A DNA stretch of 34,607 nucleotides, from positions 1 to 34,607 of the forward strand of contig JADGCO010000046.1 of assembly GCA_015228935.1 (NCBI GenBank). The letters run 5' to 3'. Of the stretch, positions 18,889-34,142 are shown piece after piece. Source of the DNA: Magnetococcales bacterium. GTDB lineage: Bacteria > Pseudomonadota > Magnetococcia > Magnetococcales > DC0425bin3. Positions within the stretch are counted from its first letter, which is position 1, and each line of letters begins with the position of its first letter. The notes under the pieces were generated by a model, which was not told the DNA's origin, searched no databases, and saw only the letters and a program-made list of their open reading frames with translations. Both the position numbers and the translations under genes were made by a program.

Positions 18889-19788
18889 TTAAATGGTGCC
18901 AAACAATTTTTTAAATTCCGCAAATTTTGAAATAAAATCAGCAAATTCTTTTACGCTTGGCAAGGCGTTTAATGCATTGCCAGTGATCAAGCCAGTCTGA
19001 TCAATCATGACATTCATGGATGATCCGGGCCTTTTTCTTTGCCCTGCCAAGGTGATGATCGCCTTCTGCTTTTTTGATTTTTCGGCTATGGCAATTTCTT
19101 TTACCGGGTCTTGTATTTTCCAATCAAACATGTTTGTGACGGCATCATTCGACTTCTCTATCAATTGCGCATGATCTTTTTGCAGTAAAGGAATAAGAAT
19201 ATCTTCCAATGTTCCTCCTTTTTTTGGATCTCCCCATATATAAATACCCTTATCTCCATCAACAATTCCTGCCATGTTGTTTTTATCAACCACAATATTT
19301 CCAGATATCCACTGCTCTTTTCCATAAATGTCGCTGATTTCAGAAAAATCCCTCATGAATTCATCAAAAATTATATCAAAACTTCTTGAATCTGCATCAT
19401 ATATAAATAAATAACGCGACTTTTTTATAATTTTATCAGTTTCTCCTGTCAATTCAGATGCCTCTTTTGATAAAAGCATGTACGACGAAAGAAAAGGCAT
19501 AATATTATTTTTTCTGGCATCACCGCCACTGTCAAACAGTAAGATGAGATTATTTTCCTTGTATAGCACACGATCTGGCAGAAAAAATTTATGCGCCATG
19601 GCGAGGTCGAGATCTTTCATGGCATGAAGGCTTAAAGTGTTTCTAAAAATTTGATTTAAGGGAGAGGGAAATTGACTCAACGGCCATTTGGCTCTTGAAA
19701 AACCAAAAATGTGTTTCAAGACCAATCTGGTCAAGGCTACATCATGTTTTCCTTCACAAAACACAAAAAGTGCCTTATAGTCGAGCAT
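18889..19788 (-). CDS. TOPRIM-like partner protein of the ParB-ATPase
   Basis: A 299-residue protein with TOPRIM-type landmarks: an N-terminal FCEGKHDVALTRLVLKHI with the conserved Glu12, LILLFDSGGDA (Asp86/Asp90), YLFIYDADSRS (Asp131/Asp133), and GDPKKGGTLEDILIPLL, a segment like the GTLED motif of DUF3226/OLD-related TOPRIM proteins. This suggests a metal-dependent nuclease. The C-terminal third has a Lys-rich stretch (SKKQKAIITLAGQRKR) and no clear motif. Its ATG shares one base with the ATPase stop (TAATG), so the two are translated together. The region is strongly AT-rich against its neighbours. ATPase plus separate TOPRIM protein recalls PARIS, but I cannot confirm homology to AriB. Confidence 0.7.
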   Translation of the reverse strand: MLDYKALFVFCEGKHDVALTRLVLKHIFGFSRAKWPLSQFPSPLNQIFRNTLSLHAMKDLDLAMAHKFFLPDRVLYKENNLILLFDSGGDARKNNIMPFLSSYMLLSKEASELTGETDKIIKKSRYLFIYDADSRSFDIIFDEFMRDFSEISDIYGKEQWISGNIVVDKNNMAGIVDGDKGIYIWGDPKKGGTLEDILIPLLQKDHAQLIEKSNDAVTNMFDWKIQDPVKEIAIAEKSKKQKAIITLAGQRKRPGSSMNVMIDQTGLITGNALNALPSVKEFADFISKFAEFKKLFGTI

Positions 19789-21983
19789 TATCTGGCTTTC
19801 CTTAAATCCACATTTCCTGCCTTGAGAAGCTTTTGAAATTTTTGTCCATCATAATATCTTACAATAATTTTCTCTTCATTTTCCACGAGAGCATAAAAAG
19901 AATAATATTCTGGGTTTTTAGAATTCTCTATAAAAGCATCTATGCACTCTTTGCTGTGACTCGTCATGAAGAGTTGGGCATTAAATGTGACGGCCAGTTC
20001 ATGAATAAACGGGGTGTAGCGGGCAATCAATTTTGCATGGATAGCATTTTCAAATTCATCGATGAGAACAATTCCATTTTTGGCCGCAGAGAACATCAGG
20101 GATAAGAAAAAAATACGCTGTAGACCCTCGCCATAAACTGCAATATCAACACCTCGGTCAAACTTGTTATCATCCACGATAAAACGCTGTCGGGCATCAA
20201 TCAAGCGAATGTCATTGATGCTTGGAAGCATCTCCCGGCGCAAAAATTCAATAATTTGAGGTAAGGATTTGGATTGGACGCTCTGATGATAGAATCTTGC
20301 ATAACGATGCGGTTCGTTGAGGAAAAACGGGCTACTGAATACCACCGGGCAAAGCAGTTTAATAGAATCTGCCAATGTTTCACGCTGTCGTCCCAGAAAA
20401 ATACGGGTTAACGATTCCTGCTTATGGGTGCCATGGTTTGCTGTCAATTCAACTGTCTGCATGTATCTTGTTTTATCAAATGTAGGACTTTCCTCGAAAT
20501 AGTGAAGAGTTGAAATATTTGTATCCTGATTGTCAAATTTTCCCGAAATATGGATGGAATCCGGGATTTGTTCCAGGAACCATTCAGGATCCAACCGATC
20601 TGCTGCTTCCTTGGCTCTCAAACGCATAATATTTAATAATCCGTCAAAATCGTTTTGATGAGACAGTAGATAAACCGCCTCAAGCAATGTCGTTTTTCCG
20701 GTGTTATTGATTCCAGCAAATATATTTATTCGAGACAATGTGTCAATACGAATATTTTTTAATTTTTTATAATCATGAATCATTAGAGAAGTAAAATGGG
20801 AATCAATACGATCATGGAAAATATTTTTTTGTTCGACACCGATCAAACCCGTTGATCGGGTCCGATCAATAATGCTTTGCAATTTTCCAAGAGCGTTTTC
20901 AATCGATAAAAGATTCTCCCCTCGTATGGATAATCCTCCCAAAGTATTGATGTCTCTGGAAACGGATTCAACCAAAAAATCCTGCTGTGTTTGAATGACC
21001 AGGTCGCTTGCCTGATAAGCCATTTGTAAGTTTCTGGTTTTTACCAATATATCAAAGGCTCGCCGATCTGTAAGAAGCCTGCTCAGGGTATAAATATCAT
21101 CCCGTTTATTAATGGCCGGTTCTTGATATTGTTCTCCATAAGTAACCTGACCATCGTCATCTTCCTCAGAAATTGGCTCTCTTGATATCAATGAAAAGAA
21201 AATATCGGCATGATTCGTATCGCCGGCAGAGTAAATTTCATCGTTCCAATTCAACCAATCTTTCATGGCTGAGTTTTTAATGACTTCACGAAAAATTGGA
21301 AACTTGCTCTCATCAAACTGATCGCCATAATCAGATTTTTTATACTGTTCAACAAAAGCCAATGCACGTAAGCTGCGCCGCAACTCCACCTTGCTGATCC
21401 CAATTCTCCGACAAATTTCTTCTTCACCAATAAAAAATTTAGAATGCATTCTTTGTAAAAGTTTGGCCTGGTTCCACTCTTTCCATTTTTTGTTTCCGCT
21501 GATATGTTTAAGAGCCATCAGAGTCAGATGATGCAACTCACCGGCATCATTATATAAAACAACAGGAATTCTGCTGAAAATTTCAATCCCCAACTTTCCC
21601 AAATCGATATATTTTTGTTCATGTTCATGCAAAATATGTTTCAGGGCGGCGATGCGACGATTTCCTTCGACAACAACATAACCTTTTTCAGGTAATTCGC
21701 GTACCTGAATTTGATCAACGGGTAGATAGCCATTGGCGAGAAAACTGTCAATCAAATCTTGAATATTTTGGTTGCGTTCTCCAGCAAGCATGCGAAAAGT
21801 TCGACGCGCAACCGTATCATCCTTGATGCGCTCATCAGATACTTCGACAAAATCTTTTTCGTGAATCAGTCGGTAATTGTTTGGATCAAGGTAGATGTTC
21901 TTTATGCTGATCCGCTTGACACTGGACTCGTTTCGGGTTTCCTCATCATTCATATCAAATTCATCCTGCTGTTTTTCGATCAT
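19788..21983 (-). CDS. ParB-like / HTH / ABC-type ATPase fusion, candidate defence sensor
   Basis: A 731-residue protein with an uncommon layout. Residues 24-120 form a ParB/Srx-like domain (IYLDPNNYRLI, IQDLIDSFLANGYL, VVVEGNRRIAALKHI). Residues 180-215 look like a KorB/ParB-type helix-turn-helix (EEEICRRIGISKVELRRSLR). A helical linker runs to about 400. Residues 403-700 are an OLD/AAA_15-type ABC ATPase with Walker A GINNTGKT (424-431), signature GEGLQ (618-622), Walker B IVLIDEFE (638-645) and switch TSHS (near 675). The start is 3 bases after the treZ stop; ATG 21953 (MNDEETRNE), preceded by AGGA, is an alternative. The coding DNA is AT-rich, indicating transfer. Likely role, by inference: DNA or phage sensor controlling the TOPRIM partner. 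Confidence 0.8.
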   Translation of the reverse strand: MIEKQQDEFDMNDEETRNESSVKRISIKNIYLDPNNYRLIHEKDFVEVSDERIKDDTVARRTFRMLAGERNQNIQDLIDSFLANGYLPVDQIQVRELPEKGYVVVEGNRRIAALKHILHEHEQKYIDLGKLGIEIFSRIPVVLYNDAGELHHLTLMALKHISGNKKWKEWNQAKLLQRMHSKFFIGEEEICRRIGISKVELRRSLRALAFVEQYKKSDYGDQFDESKFPIFREVIKNSAMKDWLNWNDEIYSAGDTNHADIFFSLISREPISEEDDDGQVTYGEQYQEPAINKRDDIYTLSRLLTDRRAFDILVKTRNLQMAYQASDLVIQTQQDFLVESVSRDINTLGGLSIRGENLLSIENALGKLQSIIDRTRSTGLIGVEQKNIFHDRIDSHFTSLMIHDYKKLKNIRIDTLSRINIFAGINNTGKTTLLEAVYLLSHQNDFDGLLNIMRLRAKEAADRLDPEWFLEQIPDSIHISGKFDNQDTNISTLHYFEESPTFDKTRYMQTVELTANHGTHKQESLTRIFLGRQRETLADSIKLLCPVVFSSPFFLNEPHRYARFYHQSVQSKSLPQIIEFLRREMLPSINDIRLIDARQRFIVDDNKFDRGVDIAVYGEGLQRIFFLSLMFSAAKNGIVLIDEFENAIHAKLIARYTPFIHELAVTFNAQLFMTSHSKECIDAFIENSKNPEYYSFYALVENEEKIIVRYYDGQKFQKLLKAGNVDLRKAR

Positions 21984-21986
21984 GGG

Positions 21987-23921
21987 TCAGACAACGGTCG
22001 TACCTGAAACATCTTGTATATGCCAGGCAACATACCAGGGAGGAAAATACTTTCCAACCGTGTGTGTCGCATGGAAAGGGTATCCAACATGGGGCGGTGC
22101 CGGCAAGGAGTTGGGCGACAAATTGGCCTTGACGATCAATCTGGAACCGTCCCGCAGGGACCAGAACACTTGCAAAAGGCCATCGGAACGGACAAACCAT
22201 TGTCCGGCATGCCCTCCGATCAGGGGGAGACGTGGTATGATTTCCTTGTGGCGCACGGCCAATAATTTTTGATGCAGGGTCAACCAGTATGGCCCGTTTT
22301 GGTTATTGATGGCGCGCCAATCCATGCGTGCCATGGCCATTGTTTGTGGGTACCCGGGGTGGGGCAGGGGGGGCAGTTCCTTCAGGTTGTGGAATCGGTA
22401 ATAATGCCTGAATTCCCGTTGTCGGCCTTCGACAATGGATGGGTGCAGGTCGGCGTGCAGGTCGCAAAAAAATGGAAAAGGCTGTGAACATCCCCACTCC
22501 TGTCCCATGAACAGCATGGGAATTTGGGGAGCCAGCAACAACAGGGTCGTGGCAGCCTGAACGGCCTCTGGCGGGACCAGGGAGACGATCCGTTCGGCAG
22601 CGAGTCGGTTGCCGACCTGATCGTGATTTTGCAGAAAGGACACAAAGGCTGTGGGAGGGAGATGGGCGCTTGGTTCACCGCGTGACCGGCCATCGCGGTA
22701 GGGGGAGGCCTCCCCCTGCCAGGCAAATCCCTCGGCCAGAGAGCGGCCAAGATGGTGCAGCGGCGTCTTCTGGAAATCCAGATAATATGCCTGGGTTTCT
22801 CCGGTCAGGATGTGATGCAGGGCATGATGCAGATCATCGTGCCATTGTGCCTGGCAACGGCCAGTGGCCATTTCCGGTTGGATGGTGCCGGGTGGCTGCG
22901 GCTTCGGAGCCGGATGACCTTTGGCCAGGCCTGGTTTGCCGGCCTTGGGCGCTTGTTGAATAAAACTATCTGGGCGCAAATAGTGGGCGGTATTGGCATC
23001 ATTTTCCAGAATCAGGTGGATGGGACGCTGGGCACCGGGACCATTCTGGACAGCAGCGGCCAATTCATGAATGATATCGGGTTCGGTCTCATCCACCATG
23101 GCCTGGACGGCGTCCAGACGCAAGCCATCCATATGATACTCTTCCAGCCAATACAATGCATTATGAATGAAAAACTGCCGGACCCAATGACTGTCGGTTC
23201 CGGAAAAATTCATGGCCACGCCCCAGGGGGTGTGGTGGTGGGTATGAAAAAATTGGGGGGCATACAGGTGCAGATAATTGCCCTCGGGTCCAAAGTGGTT
23301 GTATACCACGTCCAGAAACACCATGATCCCCAGGGCATGGGCTTTGGCCACCAAATTTTTCAAATCTTCCGGGCGACCATAGACCGATTCGGGGGCAAAG
23401 GGCAGCACGCCATCATAACCCCAGCCATGCTGACCGGGAAAATCGGCCAGGGGCATGAGTTCTATCGCCGTGACACCCAGTCTGTCCAGATATTCCAGGT
23501 GTTTTTCCACACCCAAATAATCGCCGCGCGGGGTAAAGGTGCCGACGTGAAGTTCGTAAATGATTGTCTCGGTCCAGGGTCGGCCTTGCCAGGAGGCATC
23601 GGGCCACTCCCAGGCCGCCGGATCGACGACGCAACTCGGGCCATGCACGTCATGAGGTTGATATCGGGAAGCCGGATCTGGGACCCGTGGGCCTTTGTCG
23701 ATGCGGAAGCGATACAGGGAGTTCGCCTTGGCCGCATCGGTAATCAGCGTAAACCAACCCCCTTCCGTTGCCTGAAGCGGAAGAATTTTTTCTTTTTTGG
23801 TCGCAGATTCCAGACAAAGATCCACCTGACGGGCGGCAGGTGCCCACAAGCGAAAGGCAACGGTGCCATCCTCTTGCAGGAAAGTTCCAAACGGCATCCC
23901 ATGGACACGGCGACTGGTCAT
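21987..23921 (-). CDS. treZ: Malto-oligosyltrehalose trehalohydrolase
   Basis: A 644-residue GH13 enzyme that releases trehalose from maltooligosyltrehalose. An N-terminal E-set/CBM48-like domain (GTVAFRLWAPAARQVDLCLE) is followed by the barrel with YELHVGTFTPRGDY, FLDVVYNHFGPEGNYL, the nucleophile region MDGLRLDAVQAM, the acid LILENDANTA, and FLQNHDQVGNR. A C-terminal domain (LLAVRHKEIIPRLP) closes it. Between barrel motifs there is a Pro/Lys-rich stretch (QQAPKAGKPGLAKGHPAPKP) of no known role. The usual partner treY is not in the window, so the first enzyme of the pathway must be encoded elsewhere. Neighbours on both sides are defence-like. Confidence 0.95.
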   Translation of the reverse strand: MTSRRVHGMPFGTFLQEDGTVAFRLWAPAARQVDLCLESATKKEKILPLQATEGGWFTLITDAAKANSLYRFRIDKGPRVPDPASRYQPHDVHGPSCVVDPAAWEWPDASWQGRPWTETIIYELHVGTFTPRGDYLGVEKHLEYLDRLGVTAIELMPLADFPGQHGWGYDGVLPFAPESVYGRPEDLKNLVAKAHALGIMVFLDVVYNHFGPEGNYLHLYAPQFFHTHHHTPWGVAMNFSGTDSHWVRQFFIHNALYWLEEYHMDGLRLDAVQAMVDETEPDIIHELAAAVQNGPGAQRPIHLILENDANTAHYLRPDSFIQQAPKAGKPGLAKGHPAPKPQPPGTIQPEMATGRCQAQWHDDLHHALHHILTGETQAYYLDFQKTPLHHLGRSLAEGFAWQGEASPYRDGRSRGEPSAHLPPTAFVSFLQNHDQVGNRLAAERIVSLVPPEAVQAATTLLLLAPQIPMLFMGQEWGCSQPFPFFCDLHADLHPSIVEGRQREFRHYYRFHNLKELPPLPHPGYPQTMAMARMDWRAINNQNGPYWLTLHQKLLAVRHKEIIPRLPLIGGHAGQWFVRSDGLLQVFWSLRDGSRLIVKANLSPNSLPAPPHVGYPFHATHTVGKYFPPWYVAWHIQDVSGTTVV

Positions 23922-25379: not shown

Positions 25380-25567
25380 GGACTTTTCTCCGAACAATTT
25401 TTCATCGAGTCGTTTGATGGCATCGTCGCGTCAACGTCAGGCTGATTCAAACTCTTCTCCGAACAATTTTTCATCGAGTCGTTTGATGGCATCGTCGTGT
25501 CAGCGTCAGCGTCAGGCTGACTCAAACTCTTCTCCGAACAACTCTTCATCGAGTTGTTTGATGGCAT
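25380..25567. repeat. Three tandem copies of the helicase gene's 3' end
   Basis: The last codons of the helicase, with its stop (25511-25567), are repeated at 25436-25510 and, partly, at 25380-25435. TCTCCGAACAA starts at 25531, 25456 and 25387, so the periods are 75 and 69 bases, both multiples of three. The first downstream copy reads AIKRLDEKLFGEEFESA and stop, close to the real tail AIKQLDEELFGEEFESA. The two outer copies resemble each other more than the in-gene copy. A run of GTCAGC/GTCAGG hexamers accounts for the 6-base difference. Confidence 0.9.
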
Positions 25568-27857
25568 TGTAGCTTTGGCGGGCTGTGGCCATGCGTTCTT
25601 CGAGTTCCAGGAAAGCGGCGTCGCGTTCGGCGTCGGTGGCCCGTACCCAGGAGGTGAATACCAGGCTGGCAAAATCCTGTTCTTCGTCGATTTCGCCCAG
25701 GATGGCATCCACTTCCCCCACCACGAGTTCGAACAGGTTCAACTTTTCATCGAGAATGCGCAACAGTCGATCTTCCACGGAGCCACGGCTGGCCAGATTG
25801 AAGATGAACACTTCGCGGGTTTGGCCGATGCGATGGATGCGGCCAATGCGTTGTTCGATGGCCATGGGATTCCAGGGAAGGTCAAAATTGATCATGGTAT
25901 TGCAAAACTGCATGTTGCGACCTTCGCCGCCGGATTCGGTGCAGAGCAGGACGGCGGCTTCGTCGCGAAACCGGACCACGGCGGCATCCTTGTCGGGGCC
26001 GCTCATGCCTCCTTCAAAGCGGGTGGCGGCGATGCCGGCTTTTTGCAAAATGGTGGCCAGACGGGTCATGGTTTCCCGGTGGTGGATGAAGACCATTTTT
26101 TTTTCATCGGGATTGCGGCGCAACAGGTCGAGGAGGGCGCGTTCCTTGGCACCGCTGGCAACGGTCTGATAACGCTTGAGCAGGGCATGCCAGGCTTGCG
26201 GCAATTGATTGTCCCGTTGCACGAGTCGTTCGATGGCGGCGATGGCGGCCTGGGGTGATGAACCGGCAGCGGCCAGAAGATGATGCAGGGTCAGGCGGTG
26301 GGTCGTGCCTTCTTTCTGGTGCATGTCCCGGACCAGAAGATCGAGTTGTGCGTAACAGGCCTGTTCATCTTCCGACCCGTCCACGCGCAGGGTCACGGCC
26401 TGGCGGGGGGGGAGCCGGACATCGACGAGCGCCCGGGTGTTGCGGATCATGACATCGCGCATCAGCTCCCGGAGTTGCAGCCGATTGGCCGGAATGCGGG
26501 GTTTGCGGGGGGTCATGTAGGTGGCGCGAAACTCCCGTTCGGTTTTGAAGATGCCGGGTTTGAGCAGGGTCAGCAGATTGTAGAGTTCCACGAGGGAATT
26601 TTGGACCGGGGTGGCCGACAGGAGCAACAGAAAACGTTTTTTCAGGCCATCGACCAGTTGCCAGTTGCGGGTGGTTCGATCCTTGAGGTGGTGGGCTTCA
26701 TCGATGATCACCAGGTCATAGGGGCGGGTCAGCAGGCGGTCGAACTGTTCGCGGCGGCGGGCGGTGGCGATGGAGGCGATGACCCTGGGTTGATCCCAGA
26801 AGGCATCGGGGTTTTCCTTCAGCAGGGGGTCATAACTCGACGTAAAGGCGATGCCGAACTTGGTGGCCATTTCTTCATGCCACTGGCCCACGAGCGAGGC
26901 CGGGGTGAGGATCAGGATGCGTTCCACCATGCCGCGCAGGAGGTACTCCTTGATGACCATGCCGGCTTCGATGGTTTTGCCCAGGCCCACTTCGTCGGCG
27001 AGCAGGACCCGGCCCCGAAAATGGCGCAGGACCTTGCGCACCGCTTCGACCTGATACCAGTAGATGGTCACATCCCGCAAATGTGGCAGGCAGAGCAGTT
27101 CGTCGAATCCTTGCAGCAGTTCCAGGCGGGCCACCTCTTCGCGCAGGCGGAACCAGGGGGACGGTTCCTGCCTTTCGGTTACTTTTCCCACCATGCGGGG
27201 GTCCAGCGTCAGGGGTTCAATGTGAATTTCCGGGGCAAAACGTTCAAAGGGGAGTGCGAATGTTTCTTTCTGGCTGCTTGTGTCGTTGTTTGGCGGCGGG
27301 GTGGCTTCGGGTGGTTTGCTGGGGGAGGGGGGGTGTGGTTCGCTGGGTGGTTTGGTGGGTTTTCGGGTTGCGGTACGTTTGATATTTGTTTTTAAAGATG
27401 GTTTTTTCGCGATGAATTTTCGGGAATCGTCCAGCCGGGCAAGGTGATGCTTTTCATAGATGCGGCGGACCCACTTGTTGACCCAGGGAAGAATCCGTTC
27501 TTGACAGGGCAGGTCTACAGCCTTGTTGCCTGGTCCGGTAAACTTGTTTTCTTCCAGGGTGCGGATGGCCAGATTCCACAGGCCTTGTTGCATCTGGGCA
27601 ATGGCCCGCAGCAATTCGCATTTTCGTTCAGGTATATATTTCTTGCTTAATCTTTTTAAATATTTAAGGCAACGGTCGGGCCGTTCTTCAATCAATGCGG
27701 CCAGTGCAGCCAGAAAAAGAAATTCCGGATCGTTCGGATATTGGGCCAGGGCCTCATTCGCCAACCGGGTCGCAGGCTGGAAACTGCATATGGCTTCGTG
27801 CAGGCGACTTTCCCAGATTGCAAGATCATCGGGAAGCGGCGGGACAGGGTCGCTCAC
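25512..27857 (-). CDS. SNF2/RapA-like helicase with TPR-like N-terminus
   Basis: A 781-residue superfamily 2 ATPase. Residues 1-140 look like TPR-type helical repeats (RLANEALAQYPNDPEFLFLAALAALIEERPDRCLKYLKRL). A Pro/Lys/Ser-rich linker (150-200) separates them from the motor: motif I DEVGLGKTIEAG (288-299), Ia LTPASLVGQW, motif II DEAH (386-389), motif III LLLSATPVQN, and motif VI QRIGRIHRIGQT. The SNF2 signature GLGKT and HRIGQ is clear. The start is GTG at 27857, overlapping the upstream gene's stop (GTGA). It lies between an Rpn nuclease gene and the cysteine-cluster gene, so it may drive a defence or repair complex. It is not the DISARM set (no drmA, drmB or drmC here). Confidence 0.9.
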   Translation of the reverse strand: MSDPVPPLPDDLAIWESRLHEAICSFQPATRLANEALAQYPNDPEFLFLAALAALIEERPDRCLKYLKRLSKKYIPERKCELLRAIAQMQQGLWNLAIRTLEENKFTGPGNKAVDLPCQERILPWVNKWVRRIYEKHHLARLDDSRKFIAKKPSLKTNIKRTATRKPTKPPSEPHPPSPSKPPEATPPPNNDTSSQKETFALPFERFAPEIHIEPLTLDPRMVGKVTERQEPSPWFRLREEVARLELLQGFDELLCLPHLRDVTIYWYQVEAVRKVLRHFRGRVLLADEVGLGKTIEAGMVIKEYLLRGMVERILILTPASLVGQWHEEMATKFGIAFTSSYDPLLKENPDAFWDQPRVIASIATARRREQFDRLLTRPYDLVIIDEAHHLKDRTTRNWQLVDGLKKRFLLLLSATPVQNSLVELYNLLTLLKPGIFKTEREFRATYMTPRKPRIPANRLQLRELMRDVMIRNTRALVDVRLPPRQAVTLRVDGSEDEQACYAQLDLLVRDMHQKEGTTHRLTLHHLLAAAGSSPQAAIAAIERLVQRDNQLPQAWHALLKRYQTVASGAKERALLDLLRRNPDEKKMVFIHHRETMTRLATILQKAGIAATRFEGGMSGPDKDAAVVRFRDEAAVLLCTESGGEGRNMQFCNTMINFDLPWNPMAIEQRIGRIHRIGQTREVFIFNLASRGSVEDRLLRILDEKLNLFELVVGEVDAILGEIDEEQDFASLVFTSWVRATDAERDAAFLELEERMATARQSYNAIKQLDEELFGEEFESA

Positions 27858-28816
27858 AGGTCACCAAAAAAAATTTCTTCCAATGTTGCCGCTTCCAGCA
27901 TGCGATCTCCCCATGCCTCCAGAGTTGGCAGCTTGGCCAGATGGATTTTTTCAGTGATCCATCCTGGTAAGGGGCCAAAGCGACGATTCAACAGGCGAAG
28001 CAAAAAAGCTTTGGCTTCTTCCTGTTGGCCTTCCTGTTTGCCTTTCCGCCGACCATCTTCATGCAGTTCCTTGCTCCATATCTGGACCATTTCGTCGAGC
28101 ATGTCTTGTTCCTCGTTCAGGTCAGTCAATTCCGGCAGGGTGATACCGGGCAGGCGTGTTGGCAGCAGTACCCGACGTAGCCAAGTGGAAAAAGCCCGTC
28201 TTACACTGGCATCTTCAGGTTTCCGCAACCATTGTTCCAGCATGCGGATCAGATGTCGAAGCCTTTCTGGTGAGCGGCTTTTTTCCATGGCGATCAGAGC
28301 GGCGGCCAGATTGCGTGTATCGAGGACATCGGATTCAATCATGGTATTGATATCGAGCAGAATATAGCGCATGCGCGGCTGATAGGGTTCCAAGCCGGGG
28401 ACTTTGGGGATACAATCGCCGATATCGAGGGGGACATTCCAGGGGGAGGAACCCCGGTACAATACGATGGGCACGACAGGAGGGAGTACTGTTCCCTTGA
28501 TGACGCCGCTTTTGCGCAGATCCCGATAGGAAGAGACCGCATAGTCCACCATGCGTTCCGGCATGGCTTCATCGACCGAGGCCTGTAATTCGAGGATCAG
28601 GAGAATGTGCAGCCAATATTTATCCAGGCGAACCCGCCACAGGAGATCACCTTCGCGTTGCCGGAGATCATCACCTATGGTGCGGACGTTGATTTTTTCC
28701 AGGGTGTTGAAATCGAGATGTTGAACCCAGGCCGCGTGGACAAAACCAATCAGCAGATCACGGATCATTTTCTGCTGGGAAAACAGATTTTTATATCCGC
28801 CGTCGTGATCGGCCAT
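27854..28816 (-). CDS. Rpn family PD-(D/E)XK nuclease with DUF4351 tail
   Basis: A 320-residue protein of the Rpn/YhgA (transposase_31-like) family. The N-terminal nuclease part shows the family's GDLLWRVRL, LILELQ (the D/E-x-Q catalytic motif, usually EHQ) and MPERMVDYAVSSYRDL. The end, with EAKAFLLRLLNRRFGPLPGW and LPTLEAWGDRMLEAATLEEIF, matches DUF4351. Rpn proteins are DNA nucleases first linked to recA-independent recombination, and some take part in phage defence. The gene begins a leftward operon with the SNF2-like helicase, overlapping it by 4 bases. That close coupling is unusual, since Rpn genes are more often solitary. It could also be an ordinary mobile-element-type passenger. Confidence 0.88.
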   Translation of the reverse strand: MADHDGGYKNLFSQQKMIRDLLIGFVHAAWVQHLDFNTLEKINVRTIGDDLRQREGDLLWRVRLDKYWLHILLILELQASVDEAMPERMVDYAVSSYRDLRKSGVIKGTVLPPVVPIVLYRGSSPWNVPLDIGDCIPKVPGLEPYQPRMRYILLDINTMIESDVLDTRNLAAALIAMEKSRSPERLRHLIRMLEQWLRKPEDASVRRAFSTWLRRVLLPTRLPGITLPELTDLNEEQDMLDEMVQIWSKELHEDGRRKGKQEGQQEEAKAFLLRLLNRRFGPLPGWITEKIHLAKLPTLEAWGDRMLEAATLEEIFFGDL

Positions 28817-29287: not shown

Positions 29288-29400
29288 TGTGAATCTCCCT
29301 GGTTAATATCAAAGCCTTGCGAAGGATCGTCATCCAATTGATTTTGAAAGACGTCCGATAAGAAAAGAACATCTGTGATGACTAAAAGATTATTAAAGAT

Positions 29401-31209
29401 GTCTCAATCCCCTTAAAGGCGGGGCGATAACTGCAACACCGAATTGTGACGCGGCGGTGTATGACGGCACGTTTAGTCTCAATCCCCTTAAAGGCGGGGC
29501 GATAACTGCAACCCTGTCACTGCCACGTCGCCAGACGGGCAGGCTTCAATGTCTCAATCCCCTTAAAGGCGGGGCGATAACTGCAACAAATTTTAAGAGA
29601 TGGCAGCTTGGCGCGCTTAGGCGGAGATGTCTCAATCCCCTTAAAGGCGGGGCGATAACTGCAACGGGGAAGTCGGCGCTGGGCCAGGCCTTGAAAAAGG
29701 CCTGTCTCAATCCCCTTAAAGGCGGGGCGATAACTGCAACAAAGGAATACAGATGAACAACCCAACATTGCTTATAGACAGGTCTCAATCCCCTTAAAGG
29801 CGGGGCGATAACTGCAACAAGGAAGACTGCGCCGATGGGGCGTTCCCGCCTTTCGTGTCTCAATCCCCTTAAAGGCGGGGCGATAACTGCAACGAAATAC
29901 CAACCACACGGTTGCAAACCATGGGTGGTGAGAGTCTCAATCCCCTTAAAGGCGGGGCGATAACTACAAGGTCCCCACGACATACCAGATCCGTGGCTTG
30001 GCCATGGCCTAGTCTCAATCCCCTTAAAGGCGGGGCGATAACTACAAGATTGAAAAGTCAATAACCCTCGCTAAAGCTTCGGGTTTTAGTACGGTCTCAA
30101 TCCCCTTAAAGGCGGGGCGATAACTGCAACTGAATTGCTTGGGATGATTAAAAAAGTAGCGCCGTTCATTGGTCTCAATCCCCTTAAAGGCGGGGCGATA
30201 ACTGCAACAGACAAGTATTTTAACACAGACAGGCAATTTAATACAGATGGGTCTCAATCCCCTTAAAGGCGGGGCGATAACTGCAACTGCCTGGATGCCG
30301 GAGTTGATCCAGCCATCATCCTGAAGCGTCTCAATCCCCTTAAAGGCGGGGCGATAACTGCAACGGAAAGAGCAAAAAAATGATTCCCCTATTACGGGAA
30401 TACCAGTCTCAATCCCCTTAAAGGCGGGGCGATAACTGAAACTTTACAGAAGCTGAAGTTTTGGAAGTTGTTAACGCAAGTTTCAATCCCCTTAAAGGCG
30501 GGGCGATAACTGCAACTCAAGAGCAAATGACCTTGGGACGTACACCGTTGGAATCGGGTCTCAATCCCCTTAAAGGCGGGGCGATAACTGCAACTGATCA
30601 AATATGGCGTTACGATTGTACACGGTGTCAATATGTCTCAATCCCCTTAAAGGCGGGGCGATAACTGCAACAGACACCGTGTACAAGCATGGCGAAAGCC
30701 CGATTGAAGTTCGTCTCAATCCCCTTAAAGGCGGGGCGATAACTGCAACAACCCCTTTGACTTTTTCAAAAATTTGGCGTTTGACAGTCTCAATCCCCTT
30801 AAAGGCGGGGCGATAACTGCAACGCCTGGCAGTAGGGATGCAGATAGAGGGCTGGACCCTGGACGTCTCAATCCCCTTAAAGGCGGGGCGATAACTGCAA
30901 CAATCGGCTGGGCGATTTTGTGATTTTTGGAACAGAGGAAAGGTCTCAATCCCCTTAAAGGCGGGGCGATAACTGCAACTATGCACATGGCGAAAGTCCG
31001 ATTGAAACCCTGGCAGAAATGTCTCAATCCCCTTAAAGGCGGGGCGATAACTGCAACAAAGAAAAGTTGCAAGGCATGCTTGGAGCGCCAACCTTGGTCT
31101 CAATCCCCTTAAAGGCGGGGCGATAACTGCAACGGGAGTATTGGAAGCGGGAGGATATCCCGCGTAGGAAATGTCTCAATCCCCTTAAAGGCGGGGCGAT
31201 AACTGCAAC
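29401..31209 (-). CRISPR. CRISPR array, 24 repeats and 23 spacers
   Basis: The repeat is 37 bases; on the given strand it begins GTCTCAATCCCCTTAAAGG and ends CGATAACTGCAAC. I counted 24 repeats, from 29401 to 31173, and 23 spacers of 37-45 bases, mostly 38-41. Read on the minus strand the repeat ends ATTGAGAC, close to the common crRNA handle ATTGAAAC, so the crRNAs should be made leftwards from a leader at 31210-31415. Most repeats are identical. Variants: repeats 8 and 9 (29934, 30012) end CTACAAG, repeat 14 (30406) ends CTGAAAC, and repeat 15 (30480) begins GTTTC. Spacer 9 (30049-30093) is the longest. Adjacent cas genes and a CARF-HEPN gene point to type III. Confidence 0.97.
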
Positions 31210-31242
31210 AGCCTCATTTCCATCCTACTGTACACGCAAGCG

Positions 31243-31740: not shown

Positions 31741-32796
31741 TCATTTCAGTGCAAAAGGCGCATAAGGTATCCCTCCCCGCAAGGCTGCTGCCAGACGATC
31801 CACCTGGCGGCGGATCAGGGTTGCCGGAGCCAGCTTGTTCGCATCCCCGCCATCTTCGCCGGCGGCCTCGGGCATGGGACGCTCCAGATGTTCTCCCCAT
31901 GCGCGGAAAAACACCTTGAGTCCGGCCCGGGTCAGCCGTACCCCGCCCTGGCTCTCCGTATCGGCCTCGAACATGTCTGGACGCAGGATGCGCAGATTGA
32001 CCACCCGCAAGACAAAACGATCCACGACCGGATGCCGGAACTCTTCCAACAGGTCTAATGCCAGACTGGGCCGCCCCGGACGCAGGGCATGAAAAAACCC
32101 CACTGCCGGATCCATGCCCCGCGCTTCCACCGTACCACCGATCAGATTGCCCAACAGAACATAGCCAAACGAAAGCAGGGCATTGGCCGGATCCGGTGGT
32201 GGGCGACGTTGGCGACCCGTAAAACCGATGTCGCCCCGAAAACCCGTACCAAAGGCACCAAAATAGGCCCGAGCGGCATGGCCTTCGCTCCCCAGCAAAG
32301 ACTCGGCATCCTGGCAAACGCCGACCCGTTCAACGGCGGTCTGGATGTCGCGTATGGCCGCAGCCACGGGTTCCTGTCCGGGATAGTTGGCCTGGATGCC
32401 GCGCAAGACCGCGATGGCATTGGCACATTTACCCGTGATCACCTGCCGGGCAAGACCGAGTGCGGCAACCGGGTCAATGGCAGTTCGGTACTGAGCCAGG
32501 CGCAAATCCCCGGATTTGGCCTCAGCCGGCACCATGCGCCCAAGAAAACGCCCATTCCAGGCAAACCATGCCACGCCAATGCCCCGTTCCAGACAAAGAT
32601 GCAGGGCATTGGCCGTCATGTGAACCCGCCCGACCAGCCCGATCATCTCCAAACGGTGCGGTTCCACCTCCAGGAGAATCGACCGTGTCGCCGGCAACGG
32701 TCCATCCCCATCGGGGTCCACATCCAGGGTGACGATCAGACTCGATCCGGAAAGGCGCACGGTCGCGCCCTGTTCGGTGACGTAGAGAGAGGGCAT
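31741..32796 (-). CDS. cas1: CRISPR-associated integrase Cas1
   Basis: A 351-residue Cas1, the integrase for new spacers. An N-terminal beta domain (MPSLYVTEQGATVRL) is followed by the helical catalytic domain: LLGSEGHAARAYF (Glu171), ALLSFGYVLLGNL, and AVGFFHALRPGRPSLALDLLEEFRHP, with His236 and the acidic residues Asp248/Glu251 of the metal site. ATG 32796 is preferred to GTG 32805 because AGGTGAT lies about 5 bases upstream. It follows the CARF-HEPN gene at once and precedes cas2. The sequence type fits I-C/III-like Cas1 without an RT or Cas4 fusion. Confidence 0.95.
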   Translation of the reverse strand: MPSLYVTEQGATVRLSGSSLIVTLDVDPDGDGPLPATRSILLEVEPHRLEMIGLVGRVHMTANALHLCLERGIGVAWFAWNGRFLGRMVPAEAKSGDLRLAQYRTAIDPVAALGLARQVITGKCANAIAVLRGIQANYPGQEPVAAAIRDIQTAVERVGVCQDAESLLGSEGHAARAYFGAFGTGFRGDIGFTGRQRRPPPDPANALLSFGYVLLGNLIGGTVEARGMDPAVGFFHALRPGRPSLALDLLEEFRHPVVDRFVLRVVNLRILRPDMFEADTESQGGVRLTRAGLKVFFRAWGEHLERPMPEAAGEDGGDANKLAPATLIRRQVDRLAAALRGGIPYAPFALK

Positions 32797-32801
32797 GGTG
32801 A

Positions 32802-34142
32802 TCACCTGTCAAAAAGTGGGATGGTGGCCAGTTTGAGCCAATCAAGCCTTTGTTCTCCCAGGCAGGGTTGCAATAACTCCTTTTCCAAACGAAGGTAGTA
32901 CTCGGACATGATTTGACTGTCAGGTGCCTTGGCAAAAAATCCGTGAATCAGAATACTGGTATTGCGCACCTGGGTACTCACGAGCGGATCGTTGCCCATT
33001 TTGAGCAAGGAATCACCCATAGGATCACCCATGGATCGCAACAAACCGGCAACCCGCTCGCGGCCAGCCATGCGTGTGCCATCCTTGTTGCTGCTCAAGG
33101 GAGTGTCTTTGCTTTTCTTTAATTTTTCCAAATATTTATTGATATCAGGATGGTTTGGGTCAAGCCGGGAGGAGTCATGGCCATGTTCGAACAGACGCAT
33201 CTGCCCGATCATCTCCAGGATGCGATAGGCACGGACGGCAGCATCTTCAAGTTGTCCAGCCTTGATGCGACGCAAACCGTTACCCCACAAGTCCACGGCC
33301 AGACGCAACAGATGCGGGGCTTTGCGCTGCATGCGGGTTTTTTCGTCATGAAGCTCCGGGAATGGTTCCGCGACTATTTTTACCCAATCCCTGACCGCAA
33401 GTGATGGTGCGAATTCACGCCACTTTCTGTTGGGAAGATTGTTTTCATCCAGAATATTTTTGGTGGCTTCCTGGTAATTCAACCGGTCCCATGCCGTATA
33501 AAACATGGCCAGGGATCGAATCGCACGCAAACCATGGTGATGTTCTTCAGGCCAATGCCAAGCGGCCCAGCCCGAATCAGGATCGGGAACAATATCCAGA
33601 ACGGCTGCAAAATTTCCATGCCGGAACAAACGTAAAGCATCATCCATGCGGCGGGCGGCGGTAATTCGGGTGGTGCGAAACTCGGCAATCTGTTCTGTTC
33701 CCGGTTGTACCATTCCCCGCTTATCCCGTTCACCCGTGATGTAACGCAAAGAGGAAACGTCGTGCCGCACCGCTGCCAACACCAGGGCTGCACTCATCAT
33801 TTTGGTGCCACGGGTGGGGTCCACGGCGATTTGGTGGCTTTTCCAGCCATCAGCCAGCAGATCCGTCATGACACGATCAAAATGGTCAAAACAATGGTCG
33901 GCGTTGTCTTCATCACCGGTGCGTGGCAAGGGGTGGATCCGAATGTTCAGGGGGGCCAGGTCATTGCGCACCTGCTCGGCCCACTCTTCCGAAACCAGGG
34001 AAGGCAGCATGATGACAACTGAGAATCGACCTTTTTCGATGGTCAACCGGAGTGGCTTGTACAGGGTTTCCTCACGCCGTTCTCCATCTCCGGTGCCGAC
34101 TGTCAACAACAATACCTTGTCCGGCTTATTTGACTCGTTCAT
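32802..34142 (-). CDS. CARF-HEPN ribonuclease, Cas02710/Csx1-like
   Basis: A 446-residue CRISPR ancillary protein. The N-terminal CARF domain begins VLLLTVGTGDG and has the ligand motif DPTRGTKMMSAALV (108-121). A helical middle follows, and the C-terminal HEPN part carries R393-x6-H400 in VRNTSILIHGF, the RNase motif of Csm6/Csx1-type proteins. By family knowledge, such proteins cut RNA once cyclic oligoadenylate from a type III effector binds the CARF domain. It lies between cas6 and cas1 in one operon (12 bases after cas6). It therefore supports a type III effector upstream, outside this window. TIGR02710 is my best family match, from memory. Confidence 0.85.
   Translation of the reverse strand: MNESNKPDKVLLLTVGTGDGERREETLYKPLRLTIEKGRFSVVIMLPSLVSEEWAEQVRNDLAPLNIRIHPLPRTGDEDNADHCFDHFDRVMTDLLADGWKSHQIAVDPTRGTKMMSAALVLAAVRHDVSSLRYITGERDKRGMVQPGTEQIAEFRTTRITAARRMDDALRLFRHGNFAAVLDIVPDPDSGWAAWHWPEEHHHGLRAIRSLAMFYTAWDRLNYQEATKNILDENNLPNRKWREFAPSLAVRDWVKIVAEPFPELHDEKTRMQRKAPHLLRLAVDLWGNGLRRIKAGQLEDAAVRAYRILEMIGQMRLFEHGHDSSRLDPNHPDINKYLEKLKKSKDTPLSSNKDGTRMAGRERVAGLLRSMGDPMGDSLLKMGNDPLVSTQVRNTSILIHGFFAKAPDSQIMSEYYLRLEKELLQPCLGEQRLDWLKLATIPLFDR

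Follow-up and report, generated by a model that had tools for sequence, protein, structure and literature searches.

A ParB-type module fused to an OLD-type ABC ATPase, with a TOPRIM partner gene: a candidate two-gene defence system in a Magnetococcales bacterium

The stretch of DNA analysed here, hereafter the window, comprises 34,607 nucleotides (nt) of contig JADGCO010000046.1 from a Magnetococcales bacterium (assembly GCA_015228935.1). Its minus strand holds two adjoining genes, A and B. Protein A joins a ParB-type module, a helix-turn-helix (HTH) and an ABC ATPase, and protein B is a TOPRIM protein (Table 1). Both open reading frames (ORFs) stand where an earlier note, made from the sequence alone, had placed them. 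The overlap that it had read as translational coupling is confirmed in the sequence, where the A stop and B start codons share a TAATG (CATTA on the plus strand); AAGGAAAG lies about 10 nt 5' of the gene B ATG. All the motifs that it had listed in A and B were found, most of them invariant across relatives, far beyond chance. The true start of gene A may be M11 (ATG 21953-21951), since AGGA lies 10 nt upstream of it, the other aligned copies begin at or within two residues of it and the annotated ATG lies only 3 nt past the stop codon of a treZ-like gene.

Table 1 Features of the window, with residue numbers of protein A counted from the annotated ATG
Feature	Position	Strand	Basis
Gene A, 731 aa, ParB-type module + HTH + OLD/RecF-type ABC ATPase (PADLOC PDC-M38A)	19788..21983	minus	ORF and profile matches
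Gene B, 299 aa, DUF3226-type TOPRIM protein (PADLOC PDC-M38B)	18889..19788	minus	ORF, profile and predicted fold
A/B overlap, TAATG (stop and start codons)	19786..19790	minus	sequence
ParB/Srx-type (putative NTP-binding) module of A, about residues 23-145; P motif GNRR 107-110	21549..21917	minus	TIGR00180, hhalign, conservation
ParB-type HTH of A, about residues 167-224; helices 169-182, 187-194, 198-215	21312..21485	minus	predicted model, hhalign
ABC ATPase domain of A, residues 395-731; Walker A 424-431, signature 617-623, Walker B 638-643, H-switch H676	19788..20801	minus	fold and motifs
treZ-like gene (malto-oligosyltrehalose trehalohydrolase-type)	21987-23921		
CRISPR array, 24 repeat units, about 37-nt repeat GTCTCAATCCCCTTAAAGGCGGGGCGATAACTGCAAC	29396-31223		
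cas1	31741-32805	minus	
Csx1/CARF-HEPN gene	32802-34142	minus	

Relatives were gathered from 84,980 species genomes with an alignment as query, and conservation was read from 28 A proteins and 20 B proteins. The C-terminal half of A is an ABC ATPase of the OLD/RecF/SMC type, as judged from its motifs and predicted fold, in line with the first reading of the sequence. Pfam AAA_21 (1.5e-16) and AAA_15 (7.5e-15) match it, and it carries a Walker A motif (GINNTGKT), a signature (YGEGLQR), a Walker B motif (VLIDEFE) and an H-switch (TSHS); K430, G618-E-G620 and D642-E643 are invariant in 28/28 A proteins. In fold searches, residues 395-731 matched the heads of SMC, Rad50, RecF, PtuA, GajA and retron ATPases (Z 15-17).

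Protein B carries the motifs FCEGKHD, DSGGD, YDADS and GTLED. Residues E12, D131, D133, E195 and K242 are invariant in 20/20 B proteins, and the catalytic glutamate and DxD of TOPRIM domains are thus present. Single-sequence searches of Pfam, NCBIfam and PDB returned no match for B. DUF3226 was matched by 15 of the 20 members of its alignment (best 1.6e-11), and DUF4435 was absent from profile scans of the same relatives. The predicted model (pLDDT, predicted local distance difference test score, 86.6) is closest in fold to PH0156 of Pyrococcus (2p62; Z 15.4, root-mean-square deviation 3.4, 217 aligned residues), followed by OLD TOPRIM domains (Z 7.5-8.4; 6nk8 Z 8.4). Predicted fold and invariant residues therefore uphold the TOPRIM-like call, and B is, on its model, a DUF3226-kind TOPRIM protein, which would act as a nuclease.

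The N-terminal part of A had been read as a ParB/Srx-like domain followed by a ParB-type HTH, and profile comparison bears this out. The ParB side carries LDPNN and VVEGNRRIAALK, and the HTH carries EICRRIGISKVELRRS. Residues E106-G-N-R-R110, which include the P motif GxxR, are invariant in 28/28 A proteins. TIGR00180 parB matched this part with an E of 1.4e-5, under the curated cut-off. The N-terminal halves of the 28 A relatives were compared by hhalign with 11 undoubted ParB proteins from related genomes, which gave an E of 5.2e-6 and 86% probability over 121 columns spanning the NTP-binding part and the HTH; the gene B alignment, used as a negative control, gave 0.6 and 0.1%. In that alignment EGNRR of A pairs with the ParB AGERR box. 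The HTH stands directly after the NTP-binding fold, as seen in the hhalign alignment across both and in the helices of the predicted model, where mean pLDDT is mostly 86-94 for residues 170-230. PF17762 matches weakly in 5/28 A relatives. A PDB sequence search with the N-terminal half gave one match of interest, a ParB-like nuclease domain protein, which was not significant (E 0.065), and no ParA was found among the window neighbours scanned.

Clamp-forming ParBs are defined by the ENxQR (C3) box. At that place in the alignment A has a conserved LKHISGNKKW stretch instead. According to a survey of ParB-CTPase-fold proteins (PMC12704722), nucleotide binding depends on the P motif GxxR, and the nucleotide bound may be CTP, ATP or GTP, for which sequence is no reliable predictor. 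Hence, with GxxR invariant and ENxQR replaced, NTP binding by the module of A is plausible from its sequence, while CTP clamping, or sliding as proposed in the earlier note, is conjectural. ParB proteins and the ParB-CTPase-fold fusions of that survey have in common with A the P motif and an HTH after the NTP-binding fold, but in A the ENxQR box is replaced by HISG. The survey describes the ParB fold as often joined to other domains on mobile elements; an ABC/OLD fusion and a TOPRIM partner are not named in the parts searched.

A first scan of genome contigs with the gene A sequence alone found no relative; a search with an alignment of three A sequences found 29 loci, with 28 full-length A genes. 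The earlier note had proposed a survey of whether A and B occur together. A gene B relative lies directly downstream of A in 23 of the 25 loci with usable downstream DNA, defence loci among them, and in 11/18 measured pairs the two genes share 1 or 4 nt. Distances among A proteins correlate with those among B proteins (r 0.92; 0/5000 permutations as high), and dN/dS (nonsynonymous to synonymous substitution ratio) between two copies (L016 and L041) is 0.07 for A and 0.22 for B, indicating purifying selection on both. Hosts of A belong to at least six phyla (Pseudomonadota, Campylobacterota, Bacillota, Bacteroidota, Planctomycetota and Thermodesulfobacteriota), and further include bins named Aminicenantes and Chlorobiaceae. 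Among 48 Magnetococcales genomes the genes are patchy: the N-terminal module of A is found in 4 and B in 4. All four B genes adjoin an A-type ATPase, which has the ParB part in three cases and lacks it in one (G043). The other two Magnetococcales copies cluster with Desulfobacteraceae, Rheinheimera and Bacteroidales copies on a well supported branch that leaves out the window copy; such separate branches are as expected of mobile genes. The two-gene unit is real and mobile. No plasmid or phage record held a full pair of the window type, and a viral scan with gene B gave no match. Two loci have an altered B: in a Magnetococcales genome, B is split into two ORFs beside an intact A (L018, 11175-12045), and L014 has a shortened B.

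Both proteins match one PADLOC entry, PDC-M38, near full length and in the same order, and no anatomical difference from it was found. Protein A matches the PDC-M38A model PDLC04607 (5.5e-257; residues 14-729, profile positions 4-715 of 715) and B the PDC-M38B model PDLC04617 (9.1e-93). The entry is an unnamed candidate of PADLOC-DB 2.0 (2023). PDLC04607, with its 715 positions, takes in the ParB part, whereas the four other matched PDC-M38A models (362-383 positions) span the ATPase only; the ParB-fused form is therefore, from these profiles, one branch of PDC-M38. The call of a defence pair made in the earlier note is thus supported by profile, fold and neighbourhood, but its description of the layout as unrecognised has to be given up, since PADLOC holds both halves. 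The name PDC-M38 was found nowhere in the literature searched. Hence, the combination is already catalogued as a candidate, but is unnamed and undescribed in the searchable literature.

Copies of the pair sit in defence loci. Four are held by BREX operons, in the orders pglX-A-B-pglZ (L012), pglZ-A-B-brxL (L038), pglX-A-B-pglZ-brxL (L023) and, at a contig end, pglZ-A (L019). Another lies inside a type III restriction-modification (R-M) operon (mod-A-B-res, L028), and L041 has phage tail genes upstream of the pair. Of 5,426 complete Escherichia coli genomes, 34 have the pair; two were inspected, and in both a P4-like satellite at tRNA-Leu carries it, on the downstream side of psu, the polarity suppression gene. 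The cargo site of P4 satellites is a reservoir of anti-phage systems (PMC9122126). The E. coli version is a diverged ParB-fused PDC-M38 pair (L079, 10971-14055; proteins WP_044189384.1 and WP_049091835.1). According to a 2026 survey of BREX (PMC12839542), BREX loci in general may contain OLD ATPases linked to TOPRIM; the passages searched mention no ParB-ATPase fusion. At one further locus (L081, 2-2631), inspected by eye, an A-type gene after an HsdS-like gene is accompanied by a different, smaller TOPRIM-like ORF that is cut by the locus end; the TOPRIM partner may thus be exchangeable.

Among known systems, PARIS (AriA/AriB) likewise combines an OLD-type ABC ATPase with a separate TOPRIM protein, uses the P4 satellite site and keeps company with BREX and R-M genes. 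AriA models match gene A over its ABC part only (2.8e-20). However, A adds the N-terminal ParB-HTH module, and B has no AriB or DUF4435 match (PADLOC at E<=1 yields PDC-M38B models only); on this partner gene, membership in PARIS was rejected. Class 1 OLD and GajA share the ABC ATPase and TOPRIM chemistry, with the OLD TOPRIM as second-best fold match of B, but they are single polypeptides; in the window, as in relatives, ABC and TOPRIM each have an ORF of their own, and the one-gene form is excluded. Gabija was rejected as well, for the window pair, which has the extra ParB-HTH module, adjoins treZ and pilin genes and no GajB UvrD-like helicase. By these tests the pair is a subtype of neither PARIS nor OLD, a possibility that the earlier note had raised. 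AbiL (AbiLi/AbiLii) also has a TOPRIM-like second gene, and the ATPase of A matches the AbiLi model (5.2e-35), but no AbiLii/RloB-type profile matched B or its relatives, which rules it out; a ParB part such as that of A is not described there. Finally, the ParB-like N-terminus of A draws matches from the PD-Lambda-5_A models of PADLOC (5.7e-10). PD-lambda-5 of E. coli is labelled a methyltransferase, a compacted R-M plus abortive infection system that gave broad phage protection by test (PMC9519451), and it lacks the ABC/TOPRIM pair.

The halves of A also occur apart. The ParB-HTH half is found as a separate protein, without the ATPase, overlapping a second gene. In a Balneolaceae genome (L040, 8833-10891) the partner matches Mrr_cat, at L082 (1492-3445) it has, by eye, a similar DQGIDFFG...VGQSKHY pattern, and at L073, L083 and L084 the partners, unassigned to any family, carry a GQ-type motif. 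P2-like E. coli phages have the ParB-HTH part only, again paired, between the portal gene and P2 gene A (the P2 hotspot region). One such phage (NC_049457.1; L069, 4878-6975) has a candidate defence pair, in which a ParB-HTH protein overlaps a 330-aa partner with no PADLOC or Pfam match. Conversely, L007 has the ATPase and TOPRIM half without ParB. Together with the PD-Lambda-5_A matches, the Mrr-like partners and the ATPase-TOPRIM half without ParB suggest that ParB-HTH is a sensing module whose effector partner can be exchanged. Tentatively, and with more doubt than confidence, it could be an NTP-gated DNA sensor plugged into varied killing modules: ABC with TOPRIM, Mrr/PD-(D/E)XK-like nucleases and, by profile matches, the PD-lambda-5 methyltransferase protein. 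If true, phage defence would have a common principle of ParB-based sensing that has had no name so far.

Given the domains, the intact catalytic motifs, the conserved coupling of A and B and the placement in defence loci, the pair almost certainly serves bacteria as a defence against phages, with the ATPase of A probably controlling B, a separate putative nuclease. We consider it fairly likely that this is a horizontally moving two-gene system with A as sensor and switch and B as nuclease effector. Through its ParB-HTH part, A would bind a nucleotide together with DNA, or with a DNA-borne signal made by the phage, and this would be relayed to the OLD-type ABC head. This ATPase, which is probably multimeric, would keep B inactive or position it. 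On infection, an ATP- or NTP-driven change would free or activate B, which would cut nucleic acid and stop the phage, via cleavage of A-marked DNA or by crippling the cell.

Several points weigh against this reading. ParB_N of Pfam scores 13.6 bits on A, against a cut-off of 26.3. The fold search with whole A aligned residues 393-730 only, the ATPase filling the match list, and the ParB assignment is thus profile-based. Two loci (L030 and L032) have no recognisable B. Of the flanking neighbours that were scanned one by one, about half have no PADLOC match (a DNA ligase and an acyl-CoA dehydrogenase, for example), so that some copies lie outside recognisable islands. Finally, no experiment on PDC-M38 was found in the literature searched.

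As to how such a system would work, DNA targeting is favoured by the ParB-HTH part and by the Mrr-type alternative partner. In its strict form, a restriction or plasmid-clearance system of Wadjet-like logic, ParB-HTH would load on invading or replicating DNA, which ABC-TOPRIM would cleave. The conserved ParB-like and HTH parts, an ABC head resembling those of SMC and Rad50, the sister architecture, in which Mrr/PD-(D/E)XK-like nucleases accompany ParB-HTH, and the linkage to R-M and BREX all fit; however, no DNA site is known, the pair has no modification gene of its own and the true ParB clamp box is replaced in A. We regard this form as possible but doubtful.

Caging of B by A, on the other hand, is favoured by precedent: in PARIS, AriA holds and then releases AriB, which cuts tRNA (PMC12409363), and AAA proteins act as antitoxins of TOPRIM_OLD toxins (PMC10440598). 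Abortive infection as in PARIS or AbiL would have a phage protein, for instance an anti-restriction protein, trigger release of B, which would cleave tRNA or other host RNA, with ParB-HTH aiding only assembly or autoregulation. AriAB and AbiL share the layout of an ABC protein with a separate TOPRIM protein, and guarding against anti-restriction proteins makes sense within BREX and R-M operons. Yet B matches neither AriB nor DUF4435, and the NTP- and DNA-binding features of ParB-HTH, kept in 28/28, together with its pairing with an Mrr-like DNA nuclease, argue for a DNA-directed role; we hold this version to be rather unlikely. Most improbable is a role outside defence, as a regulator or a DNA-repair or segregation module riding on mobile elements: ParB and RecF/Rad50-like parts do serve segregation and repair too, and for one OLD ATPase, from an archaeon, a role in cell cycle progression is reported (PMC12796447), but the pair is patchy (of 48 Magnetococcales genomes, 4 have the N-terminal module of A and 4 have B), has no parA neighbour in view and is embedded in operons of BREX and of type III R-M and in the cargo site of P4.

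The window itself adds to the defence setting: the pair lies 7.4 kb from the CRISPR array, which is followed by cas1 and the Csx1/CARF-HEPN gene. Between the pair and the array, a SNF2-type helicase gene adjoins a YhgA-like Transposase_31 gene (25512-28816). The last residues of the treZ-like gene product are WHIQDVSGTTVV, as compared to WFRKEV in a same-genus homologue; given this difference, the pair may have been inserted at the treZ 3' end. A same-genus genome (G002) has treZ without the pair, and its pilin side is not syntenic with the window.

Immune effectors built as TOPRIM/ABC pairs are widespread in bacteria, and in several of them the sensing step is unclear. With a sensor-and-switch role for A, the nucleotide switch of ParB type and the DNA-binding domain that it contains would provide a concrete, testable sensor for TOPRIM/ABC defence, and the diverged natural copy in E. 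coli P4-like satellites makes the pair testable in laboratory strains. Overall, the pair would extend the ParB fold, a versatile NTP-binding module according to its survey (PMC12704722), to effector control in defence.

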